Source: Chryseolinea serpens (lineage in GTDB: Bacteria > Bacteroidota > Bacteroidia > Cytophagales > Cyclobacteriaceae). Taken from it: a stretch of 64,000 nucleotides of DNA. The notes beneath the pieces were generated by a model. That model was not told the origin of the DNA, made no database searches, and saw only the letters and a list, made by a program, of their open reading frames with translations. Shown here one piece after another: positions 628-35,905 of the stretch. Both the position numbers and the translations under genes were made by a program. Location of the stretch: positions 592,686 through 656,685 of the forward strand of contig NZ_FQWQ01000003.1 in NCBI RefSeq assembly GCF_900129725.1, written 5' to 3'. The number at the start of each line of letters is the position of its first letter. Position 1 is the first letter of the stretch.

Positions 628-636
628 TTAAAAATA

Positions 637-1025
637 GCAAGCCTGTAAGCCGGGTTCTGTTTCCGCCGAAGCGGATCCCTATCATTTATCTGGTCATGGC
701 GTCGCCACCATGATCAATCAGTCTACCCGCCACGGTTACATACGGCTTGCGCCGCACGAAGGAACGGGCAATTCCAACCATGGCCTATTTGACCTTTCAA
801 CGCGTAAGGTTTACCCTGCACCGTCTGTCGCCAGCCGGCCGGTGAGCTCTTACCTCACCTTTTCACCTTTTCCTGTCCCGACAAGTCGGAACGGGTAGTT
901 TGTTTTCTGTGGCACTGTCTGTGACCCCGGTTGCCCGAAGCCCCTTCCCGTTAGGAAGTACGCTACCCTGTGTTGCCCGGACTTTCCTCCCCCCAGCAAG
1001 CTCGGAGGCGATAAGGCGGCTTGTT
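637..1025 (-). ncRNA. rnpB: RNase P RNA (class A)
   Basis: This is the catalytic RNA of ribonuclease P, which cuts the 5' leader from tRNA precursors. On the minus strand the hallmark 5' segment GAGGAAAGTCCGGGC (around 990-975) and the 3' segment ACAGAACCCGGCTTA (around 660-646) are both present, and the ends pair as helix P1, CAAGCC (1023-1018) with GGCTTG (643-638). The GGTAAACC-type segment near 805-815 also fits. The roughly 389-nt length is normal for a class A bacterial RNA. Ends are estimated from P1 and could be off by a few bases. All short reading frames in this stretch are by-products of the RNA gene. Confidence 0.95.
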
Positions 1026-1030
1026 GCCGG

Positions 1031-26422: not shown

Positions 26423-29400
26423 GTGAAGGGTACCGTTTTCAAATACACCGTTATTCTCCTGTTCGGGATGGCCACCGGTTTTACCGCCCTGGCAAACTCC
26501 GTCGACTCCACTTTGTACAAAGAGGGCAGGGCTTGGGCTGAGCGCGATGAAGAAAAAAGCTTTCGCCTGCTGGAGAAGGCCATGCACCAGGCGCAGGACC
26601 GCCAGGAAACGGAATTTCATATTCTGTGTGTGATCACCCTGTCTAAACTGGATTTTGAAGGCAACCCGGAACGCCAACGCCACATCCTCACGTGGATCGA
26701 CCAGGCATTAAAAGAAGCAACAGCACTACGTCAACAAAGAAACATAGCGCTCTTGCACATGTCGGCCGCCTTGCTGCAAAATGAGGCCAACCATTTCTAC
26801 GACTCCACGCTTTACCACTACGAGTTCGCCCAAAAGATCCTGACCACGCTGTACGGAGAATGGAACGACCTCGTGGCCGCATGCTATCATGGGCGCGCGG
26901 ACATGTATAAGTACTACTTATTCGACTACGAAAAAGCCGAGGCACTCTACGAAAAATCGCTGCAGATCCGGGAACACATCCACTGGAAAAAGGAGGCCAC
27001 CTTTGCCCAGCTTTATTATAACCTGGCCACCACCAACCGTTCGCAGCAGGACTACGAAAAGGCCATCGCCTATGGCATCAAAACGATCGAAATGGTGAAG
27101 CGGATAAACAACCCCGTGTTCCTGGAACGATGCTACGACATCGTTGCCAACATTTACCGCGACATGGGCGAGACCAAACAAGCGCGCGTCTATTATCAGC
27201 AGGCCATCAGCCTGAACCCGAAAAATCGTAACAGCCCTCAGCAGCAGACCTGGCAGCTGGCTTGGCATTACCAAGGACTGGCGAAGTCGTTTGACGAAGA
27301 CTCCCTGTTCGATGCGGCCATCGTCAACTTCTCCAAGGCACTTGACATCTACCGGAAAACCCACAACGACAACATCCTGCTCTATTCGGAATGTCTCTTC
27401 AACACGGCCCTGGCCTACCAGCATCGTGGCGATAACGCGCGCGCACTGGATATGTATCGGCAGCGCATTCTTTCCGTAAAGCACATGAACATGGGGAAGG
27501 AGCGGATCATGGCCGAATCCTACGTTGGGTTGGGCGACTATTTCAGGGCAACCCACAACACCGACTCCTCCATTTTTTATTATCAGAAAGCCCTGACCGT
27601 CTCCGCCACCGGGTTTACCTCCATGCGCTACGACGTCAACCCAACCCTGGAGCAGGTTGGCCTCCACTATTTCGTTTACTGGATCTTGAGCAAAAAAGCC
27701 GAGACCCTCACCGCCCTGTATGAAACAAAAAAGGATGCGCGCTACCTGCGCCAGGCCCTCGCATGCCTCATGCTTTCCGAAAAATTAATGACGCAAGGAC
27801 GCAACGCGCTCGACATCGAAGAGTCCAAATGGAAATTCCTCGACTCCAACTTCCATCTCTACGAACAGATCGTGTCCACCCTCCACACGATGATGACCCT
27901 GCAACCCAACGACTCGTTGCTGGACCTTGCCTTTCACTATTTCGAGCGCAGCAAATCCTATACCCTCAACAGCGCTCTGGGCAAAGCCGAACGCGACCGC
28001 AAGATCAATGTGAACGACGCCACCTTCCAAAAATACAATGCCCTCACCCGTGACCTGTTCACCGCCCAAGATAAGCTGAGCCGCGAAAAGGATAAGGATC
28101 ACCCCGACGAAAAGAGCATCGACGCCATGCGCCAGGAGGTGGTGCGTCTCGACCGCAACATACAGGCCATCAAACCCCAACTGGAAGAAAAATATCCCGG
28201 CTATTTCACGGTGACCAGCGAACCACCCGTCCCCTCCATTCAACAGATGAAGAACTTCCTGGAAAAAGAGAACGACGTCATCATCGAATATTTTTGGGGC
28301 AACCGGTGGGTCTACGGCCTCGCGCTCGAGAAAGACCACGCCTCCTTCAAACGACTGGGCCGTGTCGATAGCCTGCAGACGAACGTCCAAAACCTGCTGC
28401 AACATTTTGCCGACGAGCATTCCAGCATCAGCCAGGAAGTGTTCACAAATTTTTCGGTGAACGCTTATGCCTTGCACCAACGCCTGGTGGCGCCCTTTGG
28501 AAAAATGATCCAACCCAACCAGCGGCTGCAGATCATTCCCGACGGCCTCATCAGCCAGATCCCTTTTGAAGTACTGCTCACCGAACCATCCCAACCCAGC
28601 CCGGTCAACTACCGCGCGGCACATTACCTCATCCGATCCCACCGGGTGGGCTATGCGTACTCCTCTTCAACCCTGTTGAACAAAACCAAACGCCACACGC
28701 CCAACCCTGCCATCCTGGCCATGGGCTTTACGGGCGGCAAGCGCCTACGGGCGGCAGCGGAGCCGCTAACAGAGATCGAAGGCGCCGAGAAAGAACTGGA
28801 AGCATTGGAGCGGCGTTTCAACACGGGAAAATTTTTGTCGGGCCCGGAAGTGACCGAGGCAAACTTCAAAACGCTCGCGCCCGCGTATGACATCATTCAC
28901 CTCGCCATTCACGGAAAGGGAGACGCAGAACAAAACTATTCGTCCAGTTTATTTTTCCGAACGAAGTCCGATTCGCTGGAAGATGGCGAGCTGCATGCCT
29001 ATGAATTGTATGGGCTAAAACTGAAAGCAAACCTGGCTGTGCTCAGTTCCTGTGAATCAGGATTGGGGAGGGCCTACAAAGGCGAAGGCATGATCAGCAT
29101 GGCCAGCGCCTTCGTGTTCTCCGGGTGTCAGAACATTTTGATGAGCTTGTGGAAGGTGAACGACCAGGCGGCCGTTTCGCTGATGGATAATTTTTACGGC
29201 GGGCTGCTGACGGGAGAACGCATCGATGAGGCCCTGGCCCAAGCCAAGCTGGACTACGTGGATCATGCCGATGAAATTACGGCGGATCCCAAAATATGGG
29301 CGCCACTCGTCGCTTATGGAAACCTGGAACCGGTCTTTCAAAAAGACAGGAGCAGGACCCTGTTCGCCGTGCTGGGCGCATTCATGGTCCTGCTCGTGGG

Positions 29401-29437
29401 GTACGCGGCGTTCCGGAAATTCAGGTCGCGCTATTAG
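26423..29437 (+). CDS. TPR-CHAT protease-like protein with C-terminal membrane anchor
   Basis: The product has 1004 residues and starts at GTG 26423 (an ATG two bases earlier is out of frame and stops at once). A signal peptide (KYTVILLFGMATGFTALA) is followed by about ten TPR units (for example ALAYQHRGDNARALDMYRQR), a coiled stretch and a C-terminal CHAT domain. The caspase-like dyad is intact: H830 in LAIHGKGD and C877 in SSCESGLG, with SMASAFVFSGCQNILMSLWKVND following. A final helix (LFAVLGAFMVLLVGYAAF) sits just before a basic tail, so the protease would face the periplasm or be anchored at the inner membrane. It converges with the sigma/anti-sigma run and overlaps the small gene at 29434 by four bases. 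Confidence 0.88.
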   Translation: MKGTVFKYTVILLFGMATGFTALANSVDSTLYKEGRAWAERDEEKSFRLLEKAMHQAQDRQETEFHILCVITLSKLDFEGNPERQRHILTWIDQALKEATALRQQRNIALLHMSAALLQNEANHFYDSTLYHYEFAQKILTTLYGEWNDLVAACYHGRADMYKYYLFDYEKAEALYEKSLQIREHIHWKKEATFAQLYYNLATTNRSQQDYEKAIAYGIKTIEMVKRINNPVFLERCYDIVANIYRDMGETKQARVYYQQAISLNPKNRNSPQQQTWQLAWHYQGLAKSFDEDSLFDAAIVNFSKALDIYRKTHNDNILLYSECLFNTALAYQHRGDNARALDMYRQRILSVKHMNMGKERIMAESYVGLGDYFRATHNTDSSIFYYQKALTVSATGFTSMRYDVNPTLEQVGLHYFVYWILSKKAETLTALYETKKDARYLRQALACLMLSEKLMTQGRNALDIEESKWKFLDSNFHLYEQIVSTLHTMMTLQPNDSLLDLAFHYFERSKSYTLNSALGKAERDRKINVNDATFQKYNALTRDLFTAQDKLSREKDKDHPDEKSIDAMRQEVVRLDRNIQAIKPQLEEKYPGYFTVTSEPPVPSIQQMKNFLEKENDVIIEYFWGNRWVYGLALEKDHASFKRLGRVDSLQTNVQNLLQHFADEHSSISQEVFTNFSVNAYALHQRLVAPFGKMIQPNQRLQIIPDGLISQIPFEVLLTEPSQPSPVNYRAAHYLIRSHRVGYAYSSSTLLNKTKRHTPNPAILAMGFTGGKRLRAAAEPLTEIEGAEKELEALERRFNTGKFLSGPEVTEANFKTLAPAYDIIHLAIHGKGDAEQNYSSSLFFRTKSDSLEDGELHAYELYGLKLKANLAVLSSCESGLGRAYKGEGMISMASAFVFSGCQNILMSLWKVNDQAAVSLMDNFYGGLLTGERIDEALAQAKLDYVDHADEITADPKIWAPLVAYGNLEPVFQKDRSRTLFAVLGAFMVLLVGYAAFRKFRSRY

Positions 29438-29880
29438 AGTGCTTGTTTTACTTTCGGGGGCGGCGCGTCGCCGTTCAGGGAAGTGGCGTAGCTGATATTG
29501 AAGACGGCCGGACTGTTCTGTTTGAACGATACTTTGGTGATGGTGCGGGCATCTTTCTTCTTTACTTTCTCCAGCCGGTCGATAAAGCTGATCATATACT
29601 GAAAGAAGGCTTTCAATTCTTTCGGCTTCAATATTGCCTCGCCTTTGTCGAAGATCCGTCCGTAGGGATTGAGATCCAGTTCGATCTCCAGGCATTCGTC
29701 GTAGATCATGGGCTTGTCGCTCTTGGCGTGTGCCGCGGTGGCCTTGTGATACAATACAGCCCCGGGATTTTCTTTTTTGGCTTTTCTGAGGGCCTCGTTG
29801 CTTTTCTTGTGTGCATTCACCTTCAGATTGAACTCGATGAAGTTCTTGGCATGCGAGATGTCTTGTTTTGTGAGAGTCAT
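29434..29880 (-). CDS. Small unknown protein beside the CHAT gene
   Basis: I do not recognise this 148-residue protein. It has no signal peptide or membrane span, is rich in Lys and Asp, and begins MTLTKQDISHAKNFIEFNLK. The pattern is helix-rich at the start (NEALRKAKKENPGAVLYHKAT), a conserved-looking DECLEIELDLNPYGRIFDKGEAIL segment, then a helix (FFQYMISFIDRLEKV) and a final strand region. It is the last gene of the minus-strand sigma/anti-sigma run (33 nt after the previous gene) and its stop overlaps the CHAT stop by four bases. A role in the CHAT module is possible from position alone. Confidence 0.7.
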   Translation of the reverse strand: MTLTKQDISHAKNFIEFNLKVNAHKKSNEALRKAKKENPGAVLYHKATAAHAKSDKPMIYDECLEIELDLNPYGRIFDKGEAILKPKELKAFFQYMISFIDRLEKVKKKDARTITKVSFKQNSPAVFNISYATSLNGDAPPPKVKQAL

Positions 29881-29912
29881 GATACAGAAATAGTTAAAAG
29901 TGGGCTATAGGT

Positions 29913-30647
29913 TTACTTTACTTTCTCCAATAATTCCCGGGCTTTCGACGCATACGAAATATCAGTCTCTCCTAATTCCCTTAATATTTTCCGTGCTTGC
30001 TCCATGTCGCCGGTTTTCAGGTAGCACAGGCTCAGGTACCACTTGGCCTGAAGGTCCAGCGAGTCGAATTTGTCGTTTAAGGTAATAAAATTCTGTTTAG
30101 CTTCCTCCACCCGGCCCACCATTAAATTGGCATTGCCCAACAACATCAACACGCCGGGGTCGGGATGCTCTTTATATAAGGTCCCCAGTTCGTCGGCGGC
30201 CTTGCTATAGTTCCCTTGCTCATAGTCCTGGAAGGCCTCTGAATGACGGGGCGTGGTTTGTTCGCCGCGCACCGTGGGGTCGAACACGTTGGGGTAGGGG
30301 GTGAAGTAACTCTGAAAGAGTTGCTCGGGGTCGTTGGGCCGCGAGAGCATGACGGCAAGGGTAATGAGCACTCCCGTGATGGCGGCGGCCGACAGGTAAT
30401 ACCATTTTCGCGACGTAGTGGCTATGGGCTCGCGCTCCATGGCTGCCTCTAACGATTGCAGGTAGCCCAGGTTGTTTTTCAGACCGTCGTGGCGTATGGC
30501 CATGATCAGGAGTTTCTCCCGTTCATACAAAGCCTTAAACGGTTCGTCGTCTTTGACGCGCTGCATCAGTTGCTCGCGCTCGGTCGCGTTCATTTCTTCA
30601 TCGAAGAACTTTTCGAGCAACAAGATGTCGTTTTCATTGGTATCCAT
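29913..30647 (-). CDS. Membrane anti-sigma-like protein with periplasmic TPR domain
   Basis: I start at ATG 30647; a TTG three codons upstream is also in frame. The 244-residue protein has a cytoplasmic N-terminus of anti-sigma type (LLEKFFDEEMNATEREQLMQRVKDDEPF), one membrane span at about residues 83-102 (WYYLSAAAITGVLITLAVML) and a TPR-like periplasmic part (AFQDYEQGNYSKAADELGTLYKE, then a second and third unit). Its start overlaps the sigma factor gene by 14 bases. The arrangement fits an anti-sigma factor whose outer TPR domain senses or binds a partner, perhaps the TPR-CHAT protein. That link is inferred. Confidence 0.8.
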   Translation of the reverse strand: MDTNENDILLLEKFFDEEMNATEREQLMQRVKDDEPFKALYEREKLLIMAIRHDGLKNNLGYLQSLEAAMEREPIATTSRKWYYLSAAAITGVLITLAVMLSRPNDPEQLFQSYFTPYPNVFDPTVRGEQTTPRHSEAFQDYEQGNYSKAADELGTLYKEHPDPGVLMLLGNANLMVGRVEEAKQNFITLNDKFDSLDLQAKWYLSLCYLKTGDMEQARKILRELGETDISYASKARELLEKVK

Positions 30648-31215
30648 GCGGAACAACGTTTTGAGGTTTTGTCATTTCTATATCAAAGATCTTGCGCAGC
30701 CGTGCCATGCATTTGCACTTCTGATTTTTGGCCGTTTCCGGGTTCTTGTATTGCATGGCCGTGGCGATCTCGGTGATGGTTTTCTTTTCGTAGTAGAACA
30801 TCTCCACCAGTTTCTGGCAAGGCTGGCCCAGTTTCTCCAGCGCGGTCTTGGCCAGTTCGAAAACAGATTCGTCTGTGCCCTGGGAAGTATCGTCGATGAG
30901 ATATTCCTTCAGCCATTTTTCCTGGTTGATGGGGGTGTATCGTTTTTCCTTGCGCATATTTTCGAGGGCTATGTTTTTACCGATCCCGAACAAGTAGGTC
31001 TTCACACTGCTGACCAGGTGCTCCAGCTTCCCCTGCTTGATGTTGTCATGAAAGATGAGAATGGTGAGTTGATAGATGTCCTTACAGTCGTCTGATGAAC
31101 AACGGTATTCCTTGCCGATCCATTGAAGGAATTCCTGCCGGTATTCCTCATAGATCCATGCTAGCTCGGCTTGACCCCCGGACCGTATTTTTTCTATGAT
31201 TTCACTTTGCATCAT
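30634..31215 (-). CDS. ECF-type RNA polymerase sigma factor
   Basis: The 193-residue protein has sigma region 2 (AELAWIYEEYRQEFLQWIGKEY, CKDIYQLTILIFHDNIKQGKL) and region 4 (LEKLGQPCQKLVEMFYYEKKTITEIATAMQYKNPETAKNQKCKCMARLR), a layout seen in Bacteroidota sigma factors that pair with TPR or CHAT proteins. The region 4 helix-turn-helix carries Asn-Pro-Glu rather than the usual recognition residues. It is the first gene of a three-gene minus run with the anti-sigma-like protein. The C-terminal extension VVPHGYQ is short. A start one codon later (MQSE) is possible. Confidence 0.85.
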   Translation of the reverse strand: MMQSEIIEKIRSGGQAELAWIYEEYRQEFLQWIGKEYRCSSDDCKDIYQLTILIFHDNIKQGKLEHLVSSVKTYLFGIGKNIALENMRKEKRYTPINQEKWLKEYLIDDTSQGTDESVFELAKTALEKLGQPCQKLVEMFYYEKKTITEIATAMQYKNPETAKNQKCKCMARLRKIFDIEMTKPQNVVPHGYQ

Positions 31216-31622
31216 CTTTAGCGCACTTAATGTGGAGCAAACGGATTTGTAACCCAGGTTAATGTATTTTTTTCACTCCATGGCTCAAAAGAACTAAAAT
31301 TTGAAACAATTAATATAGCAATTTTCAAGGAATGTGATTGAATTGCAAAAGTTTAGGAGGGTTGCCGGGAAAAAAGGCGACCGCTCTATAAAGGACCACC
31401 CAAGGCCAACCCGGCAACCGCCGGGCAAACCAGAGACCGCCGCTTTTCTCCCGCGGAACCACGCGACCAGAAAGACGCCGGTCGCACCAAAAGGCGGTTG
31501 CAGGATGTTTCAGGGCACGATTTTGAGACGCGTTTGGAAAAAAAATAAAAAAAATCTGAACGCATGGGTTACATCCGGGGTGGTTTATCATGAAGAGGCA
31601 AAACACCTAACCATTTAATGTT
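31216..31622. other. Gene-free spacer with GC-rich hairpins before a solo LuxR HTH gene
   Basis: About 400 nt between the divergent sigma factor and HTH genes. GGTTGCCGGG (31360-31369) can pair with CCCGGCAACC (31410-31419), and GCGACC (31463-31468) with GGTCGC (31480-31485). A 94-codon plus-strand frame (31334-31618) and a minus one of 93 codons both lack protein-like pattern. The spacer may hold the promoters and a structured leader; no known RNA family was recognised. Confidence 0.45.
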
Positions 31623-31823
31623 ATGAGCTCCCTCACCATGAAAGAAAAAGAAGTTTTGGCCCTCATCTCTGCCGGACTTACGACGAAAGAAATTGCAGCG
31701 CACCTGAGCATCAGCCACCACACGGTGGAAACCCATCGCAAGAACCTGCTGAGAAAAAGCGAAGCCAAAAATTCAGCGCAGTTGATACAGAAGGCTTATG
31801 CGCAACAAATGATTACTGTCTAG
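31623..31823 (+). CDS. Solo LuxR/GerE-type helix-turn-helix protein
   Basis: Only 66 residues, almost exactly one GerE domain: [42 protein letters not shown], followed by a short helical tail. There is no receiver, kinase or sensor domain. It may bind DNA as a stand-alone dimer, or be the detached output domain of a split regulator. It is divergent from the ECF sigma gene and ends with no close partner. ATG at 31623; a start at 31638 (MKEK) would trim the domain edge. Confidence 0.8.
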
Positions 31824-35847: not shown

Positions 35848-35905
35848 CGCCCTTGTTGGTGTTCTTCACCAACCGTCGCCCTTGTTGGTGTTCTTCACCA
35901 ACAAG
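35848..35905. repeat. Tandem pair of hairpin repeats (family seen again at 44158)
   Basis: A 26-bp unit starting CGCCCTTGTTGGTG is found at 35848-35873 and 35877-35902, a 29-bp period. Copy two forms a perfect 10-bp stem CTTGTTGGTG/CACCAACAAG with a TTCTT loop (35881-35905); copy one keeps the inner 7 bp. The element follows the SDR stop and lies between convergent genes. A third copy at 44158 has compensating base changes. Confidence 0.7.

Follow-up and report, generated by a model that had tools for sequence, protein, structure and literature searches.

Conserved association of a separase-like TPR-CHAT protein with an ECF sigma factor and a TPR anti-sigma factor in Bacteroidota points to a probable transmembrane signalling module

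Why should the gene for a putative exported protease of the CHAT family lie tail to tail with genes for an extracytoplasmic function (ECF) sigma factor and a membrane-bound anti-sigma-like protein? The question is raised by a 64,000-nt stretch of the Chryseolinea serpens genome (assembly GCF_900129725.1, contig NZ_FQWQ01000003.1), hereafter the window, to whose positions all coordinates refer. The five open reading frames (ORFs) that an earlier, sequence-only reading had described in it were all confirmed at the positions given for them. On the plus strand, a frame starting at GTG (26423..29437) encodes a tetratricopeptide repeat (TPR)-CHAT protein of 1004 residues, predicted to be exported and to carry a C-terminal anchor, which we propose as a site-1 protease. 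The minus strand encodes a protein of 148 residues (29434..29880), a membrane anti-sigma-like protein of 247 residues whose TPRs are predicted outside the cytoplasm (29913..30656), and an ECF sigma factor of 193 residues (30634..31215). The stop codon of the CHAT gene overlaps that of the 148-residue ORF by 4 bp, as had been claimed and as is visible in the DNA. We consider it likely that the locus encodes a transmembrane signalling module in which the CHAT protein is the site-1 protease of the anti-sigma factor, with a predicted cut after Arg130. That the CHAT protein cuts the anti-sigma factor has strong, though indirect, support from a conserved gene neighbourhood, a compatible predicted topology, an intact catalytic dyad and covariation of the kind expected between a P1 residue and its S1 pocket.

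The neighbourhood formed by the sigma factor, the membrane TPR anti-sigma and the TPR-CHAT genes is conserved in Bacteroidota, in convergent, divergent or co-directional order. The source genome (8.36 Mb) holds six CHAT genes, and 20 loci around CHAT genes, including the five other CHAT stretches of this genome, were compared. In 12 of them the sigma/anti-sigma genes point at the 3′ end of the CHAT gene within 1.35 kb; seven of the other eight lack both genes and one has both 5.6 kb away. Given this recurrence, and the persistence of the convergent pair beside CHATs as low as 24% identity in the same set, the arrangement is more than would be expected by chance. One of the 12 is a second, diverged whole module in the source genome itself (L044; G000:C10:3276000-3292000), its CHAT being 41-42% identical. 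The module lies between the same fucP-like and fabF genes in four of five other genomes of the genus (L046-L049), the fifth yielding no close CHAT match, and it is kept with different flanks in a different genus (L050).

A survey from the anti-sigma side covered two overlapping sets of 345 and 395 genomes and the stretches around 140 of the better full-length matches, which are not a random draw. The sigma gene lies directly upstream of the anti-sigma gene, as in the window, in 111 of 132 scored loci. A CHAT gene lies no more than 6.5 kb away in 77 of the 106 anti-sigma loci whose flanks are complete. In 46 of these it is within 1.7 kb (convergent in 23, co-directional in 15, divergent in 7 and otherwise placed in 1), and in 31 it is at 1.7-6.5 kb (29 divergent, 2 other). 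From the CHAT side, 61 of 80 loci in named genomes had sufficient flank and a readable CHAT, with an anti-sigma gene within 6.5 kb in 29 (14 of them convergent within 1.7 kb) and none in 32. Convergent pairs occur in Agaribacillus, Roseivirga, uncultured Saprospiraceae and uncultured Cryomorphaceae, among others, and gene order changes while the association of the three genes persists. The sequence-only reading had proposed a co-occurrence check on four genes; these three stay together, whereas the 148-residue protein has a relative in only 4 of 59 related genomes, the source included.

In five loci (L170, L180, L186, L193 and L200), which are probably flavobacterial to judge from their likeness to the divergent CHATs of the named L116, L124 and L138, the CHAT gene is divergent from the sigma gene and stands in a run with genes for lipoprotein-like, exported and retropepsin-like aspartyl protease proteins; in L180 the exported protein has PKD and DUF7849 domains and the retropepsin-like protease was identified by Pfam.

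The 1004-residue protein matches Pfam CHAT (PF12770) at residues 682-967 (28466..29323, plus strand, as are all CHAT features given here) with 190.9 bits against a curated cut-off of 24 (E 4.4e-56), and TPR families match as well. The dyad noted from the sequence, His830 (28910..28912) and Cys877 (29051..29053), is present, and is intact in all 136 pair rows scored, whether of the Arg type (111/111) or the non-Arg type (25/25) defined below. A hydrophobic N-terminal segment (26423..26500) has the look of a signal peptide by eye and forms helix 4-26 in the model, in keeping with the export claimed for the protein. The model further predicts a C-terminal membrane helix, residues 977-1003 (29351..29431), which the earlier description had not included; of 126 module CHATs, 116 have a hydrophobic segment at the C-terminus. 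The best Foldseek matches of the model are Csx29 (8eey_B, E 4.5e-14), DdvA and separases (about 1e-11), although TM-scores are modest (0.2-0.4 of query) and root mean square deviations large over these long multi-domain alignments. The protein is thus predicted to be a separase-like cysteine protease, exported and membrane-anchored.

The minus-strand run likewise agrees with what had been read into it. The sigma factor matches TIGR02937 with 48.4 bits, above the cut-off of 42.9, and Pfam sigma regions 2 and 4 are detected below their cut-offs (16.4 vs 24 and 14.1 vs 25.7 bits). The anti-sigma ORF starts at TTG, with an in-frame ATG three codons downstream. Its AlphaFold model (mean predicted local distance difference test score, pLDDT, of 89) shows a helical N-terminal domain at residues 6-74 (30435..30641, minus strand, as are the features that follow), proposed to be cytoplasmic and to bind the sigma factor, a single membrane helix at 83-104 (30345..30410), a short helix at 110-117 and TPRs from residue 136. 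A hydrophobic segment corresponding to the membrane helix is found in 171 of 179 relatives. The predicted topology is therefore a cytoplasmic domain, one membrane helix and an ectodomain, which would place the CHAT domain and the anti-sigma TPRs both outside the cytoplasm. A coil at residues 118-135 (30252..30305) joins membrane helix and TPRs, with pLDDT of about 73-75 for residues 121-140, and within it Arg130 (30267..30269), followed by Gly131, is the predicted P1 residue of the cleavage site. Position 130 is Arg in all of the first 14 anti-sigma sequences and in 42 of 43 close convergent pairs, and the residue after it is Gly or Ser in 98 of 112 Arg-type pairs.

The choice of an Arg finds a parallel in separase, where a salt bridge links the P1 Arg to a conserved Asp, Asp2151 of the C. 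thermophilum enzyme (PMC10317155). A model of worm separase places a second acid near helix alpha-1 (PMC4626109). By motif and fold position we propose as their counterparts Asp914, in the motif LWKVND (29162..29164), and Glu791, in helix 788-798 of the model (28793..28795).

If these acids formed the S1 pocket, they might be expected to change with the residue at position 130. Pairs were scored by a P1 rule (Arg, Met, Lys or Leu with a small or polar residue after it, at the spot closest to where the site was expected), which was written after the linkers had been seen and was adopted because a fixed alignment column became unsteady with more sequences, gaps shifting the Met type by a few residues. 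The rule misread one locus, L169 (Met before Asn-Arg-Gly), which was set by hand to Arg in the final table and in the smaller of the two trees described below, and excluded from the dyad and column count. From 184 anti-sigma rows, removal of five below 60 bits, 41 with no CHAT in the stretch and one with an unreadable position 914 left 137 pairs with 134 different CHATs. Of the first 95 pairs, the seven whose CHAT has Glu914 all have Met or Lys at the site, and 84 of the 87 with Asp914 have Arg. The prediction for Asp914 was fixed before 80 new loci were fetched, and the 44 new pairs scored by the P1 rule comprised 30 Asp-Arg, 3 Asp-Met, 8 Glu-Met and 3 with Gly or Pro facing Met or Leu. Counting any Arg in the linker, 32 of 33 new pairs with Asp914 have one against 5 of 11 without Asp (p 4e-4); in the raw alignment column, with no rule and with old and new pairs together, 106 of the 121 rows with Asp914 have Arg, against none of the 18 in which position 914 is Glu, Gly or Pro. 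Glu791 is lost in each of the three new Met pairs that keep Asp914.

When CHAT columns were scanned against linker Arg or Met in 132 pairs, Glu791 ranked first and Asp914 second. In the reverse scan, position 130 came first of 239 anti-sigma columns, with a corrected mutual information of 0.43; the best of 179 sigma columns reached 0.22. Over the 137 pairs, 110 of the 113 with an intact Glu791/Asp914 pocket have Arg, and 22 of the 24 whose pocket is altered or unreadable have Met, Lys or Leu (Fisher p 4e-20, a value that treats the rows as independent although the sequences are related). If L169 is not set by hand, the counts become 109 Arg and 4 other for intact pockets, and 2 Arg and 22 other for altered ones. 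The pattern holds without the 11-row clade described below (110/113 intact with Arg, 11/13 altered without) and among representatives below 40% CHAT identity (45/45 and 15/16). Among 16 columns conserved in Arg-type CHATs, His830, Cys877, Gly901, Pro956, Trp959 and Gly966 are kept in 25/25 non-Arg-type rows, while retention falls to 12% at position 791, 28% at 914 and 48% at 875, the remaining conserved columns standing at 76-96%. The matched changes in CHAT and anti-sigma suggest a protease that cuts the anti-sigma factor at one exact site.

A co-directional subtype (L164, L174, L185, L195, L233, L258, L260, L263, L264, L268 and L279), the clade just mentioned, has a DPGLPxxMS-like linker and a CHAT with Glu at 914 and no Glu at 791.

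Several observations weigh against this reading. A CHAT gene is missing nearby in 29 of the 106 full-flank anti-sigma loci, and four of the six CHATs of the source genome have no relative of the sigma or anti-sigma factor in the stretch examined. By a crude cut-off, an N-terminal hydrophobic segment is found in only 81 of 126 CHATs. Five of the 11 new rows without Asp914 still hold an Arg somewhere in the linker; three loci combine an intact pocket with another residue (Leu in L092 and L131, Lys in L137), while L190 has Arg despite an Arg at 791 and L110 has Arg with 791 unreadable. Both the core-site rule for P1 and the Glu791 finding postdate sight of the second locus set. CHAT trees, one with 85 CHATs (the 25 non-Arg rows plus 60 Arg rows out of 76 diverse ones) and one with all 134 (L169 misread), have low branch support: 12 P1 changes are placed on the best tree and three are forced by supported branches. 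Supported independent contrasts that agree number 2-3 for Glu791 and 1-3 for Asp914, with none opposing and 1-4 unchanged, so few that a sign test cannot reach significance. Both acids are invariant in 40 of 40 CHATs of A6, some of them without an anti-sigma gene in the stretch examined, so the preference for Arg may be general to the family; it may then be the ancestral state, its losses being the informative cases. Finally, in one Csx30, the substrate of the related protease Csx29, the cut is reported to lie between residues 427 and 429, and alanine scanning is reported to have found no residue essential for cutting (PMC10028731; the Csx30 studied by a different group is taken up below), and a strict P1 code is thus no rule for all CHATs.

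How else could the pattern have arisen? A few lineages may have altered both proteins for unrelated reasons, the covariation then reflecting shared ancestry. The small number of supported contrasts would suit this, as would the single clade that supplies 11 of the 25 non-Arg rows in the 85-CHAT tree; yet removal of that clade and thinning to below 40% identity leave the pattern standing, L201, nested in a supported clade beside three rows of the Arg type, is changed at all three positions, and both the other CHAT columns and every sigma column scanned have lower scores. We regard ancestry as quite an unlikely explanation. The CHAT gene might instead be a target of the sigma factor, encoding an induced effector protease that acts on other proteins and has no part in anti-sigma cleavage. 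Linkage with varying gene order would be natural for a member of the regulon, and divergent loci such as L180 group the CHAT gene in one run with genes for exported proteins and for a retropepsin-like protease; what such a role does not predict is that pocket acids and position 130 should find each other from both sides, above every sigma column scanned, and it appears unlikely to us.

Cleavage itself may be doubted, in that the CHAT protein could be a sensor partner that binds the anti-sigma factor without cutting it, like a DdvA split into separate genes. DdvA, named in the PDB as a transmembrane anti-sigma factor, is indeed among the best profile and fold matches, but the dyad is intact in 136 of 136 pair rows, and the covarying acids belong to what is in separases the substrate pocket of a protease (PMC4626109, PMC10317155); we hold this to be very unlikely. 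That the 148-residue protein is the true substrate of the CHAT protein, or its inhibitor, is highly improbable: it does lie tail to tail beside the CHAT gene in the window and in close relatives, but most convergent modules lack it or have another protein in its place, and inspection of its sequence by eye shows no export signal, whereas the CHAT protein is predicted outside the cytoplasm.

Under site-1 cleavage by the CHAT protein, the locus might work as follows. With its cytoplasmic N-terminal domain the anti-sigma factor would keep the ECF sigma factor bound at the inner membrane, and its TPR ectodomain would sit in the periplasm, tethered to the membrane helix by a probably flexible coil. 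A signal, perhaps read by the TPR region of the CHAT protein, would activate the CHAT protease, which would cut the coil after Arg130. This cut would expose the anti-sigma factor to an RseP-like site-2 protease, for which an M50 peptidase encoded in the genome (PF02163, E 7.6e-66) is a candidate, and this second step would release the sigma factor, the presumed direction of regulation. The sequence-only reading had imagined the two TPR proteins meeting at the membrane, with proteolysis of the anti-sigma factor freeing the sigma factor; neighbourhood, predicted topology and covariation favour the proteolytic part, and the bond predicted to be cut lies in the membrane-proximal linker.

The module would supply a likely CHAT substrate with a single predicted scissile bond, and its natural specificity variants make the link between protease and substrate testable by point mutants. 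It is a more tentative proposal, which we put at somewhat short of an even chance, that periplasmic separase-like CHATs form a Bacteroidota-wide class of dedicated site-1 proteases of TPR anti-sigma factors, each pair co-evolving its own P1/S1 code (Arg, Met or Lys). If so, such codes could keep paralogous modules in one cell insulated from each other, and separase-style cleavage after Arg would be an ancient signalling chemistry of bacteria.

The 148-residue protein (29434..29880) is the product of a lineage-specific third gene. It remains as unrecognised as it had been from sequence, with nothing in Pfam above cut-off and no NCBIfam, PADLOC or PHROGs match at E 0.1. It had been suggested as a regulator or substrate, but its distribution is not that of a core partner: besides its rarity among related genomes, 34 of 58 convergent modules leave less than 150 bp for a third gene, and the proteins that do fill the slot seldom resemble each other. 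It was accordingly rejected as a core part of the module. The third proteins of the window, L044 and L047-L050 have Asn-Gly-Asp near the C-terminus, often followed by prolines, and differ in the remainder; that of L044 has 212 residues and resembles that of L049. Very small proteins are encoded in the slot between anti-sigma and CHAT genes in L055, L064, L065 and L149; some of them have a membrane segment at the C-terminus or a proline run, and those of L055 and L064 have Arg-Ser in a context resembling the anti-sigma linker; such proteins might possibly be decoys or inhibitors.

A LuxR-type helix-turn-helix (HTH) protein of 66 residues (31623..31823, plus strand) is divergent from the sigma gene, as had been described. 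L048, L049 and L050, three of the 20 CHAT loci, each hold a relative recognised by the ORF picker; the HTH protein is not a core part of the module. The part in defence or death pathways that TPR-CHAT proteins had brought to mind is unsupported by the surroundings, which look like ordinary chromosome. No CRISPR array was found among the direct repeats in the 20-40 kb part of the window, and the 10 neighbours scanned with Pfam belong to general families, the surroundings including TsaD, SmpB, NlpC/P60, FabF, MlaE and GH32. At E 0.1, PADLOC gave no match for the 148-residue protein or the sigma factor and only TPR matches for the CHAT protein and the anti-sigma factor. Among nine neighbours and the HTH protein, it matched an HNH protein (best 2.7e-10), an MlaF-like ABC protein beside an MlaE permease (mad3, 1e-21) and the HTH protein (CARF3, 8.7e-10), which we read as shared common domains; save for this CARF3 match, no PADLOC match to cas genes was found among the nine neighbours and the five proteins of the locus. 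No relative turned up on viral contigs in a search that used the CHAT protein alone and could reach only close relatives. Elsewhere, the window contains a bacterial class A RNase P RNA (630-1027, minus strand; 263.9 bits) and an exact pair of 26-bp repeats at 29-bp spacing (35848-35902).

In proteolysis of the RseA/DegS type the site-1 protease is an HtrA-type serine protease. The enzyme proposed here would be a cysteine protease of separase-like type, with its gene near the sigma/anti-sigma pair; what the two systems would share is a membrane anti-sigma factor first cut outside the cytoplasm (PMC10028731). A dedicated protease that cuts an ECF anti-sigma factor is also found in CalpL-CalpT-CalpS, where it is of the Lon type and activated by cyclic tetra-adenylate (PMC11417357). 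With separase the CHAT protein has in common the fold, the dyad and the pocket Asp for a P1 Arg, but separase has cohesin as its substrate and (S/D/E)xExxR as its motif (PMC10317155, PMC4626109). CHAT proteins occur in the genetic context of ECF sigma factors in group ECF54, which the available part of a review describes as a group without an anti-sigma factor (PMC8999054). Within literature that was mostly open access, subscription papers lying mostly outside it, we found no report of a CHAT protein as site-1 protease of a TPR anti-sigma factor, nor of an exported CHAT encoded apart from a TPR anti-sigma factor whose cut site covaries with it.

The closest parallels are two. In Csx29-Csx30-CASP-sigma, a TPR-CHAT protease, the best fold match of the CHAT model, cuts the restrainer of an ECF sigma factor; its partner is the Cas7-11 effector, target RNA switches it on, and export is not described in the available parts of the sources (PMC10028731, PMC9729208). 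The window module differs from this type III-E system in having no CRISPR array near and in the predicted position of both proteins outside the cytoplasm. In Csx29 the pocket Asp is reported to be replaced, and Csx30 to be cut after a Leu (PMC9729208), which by analogy fits the proposed correspondence between pocket and P1 residue. DdvA of Myxococcus xanthus, the anti-sigma factor of DdvS, is called a transmembrane anti-sigma factor in PDB titles, and its signal is described as unknown in the part of the source available (PMC4374960). It matches the CHAT profile in sequence, and the alignment pairs up the His, the Cys and the pocket Asp. DdvA combines a CHAT-like part and the anti-sigma role in one protein, whereas the window has separate ORFs with an apparent match of enzyme to substrate.

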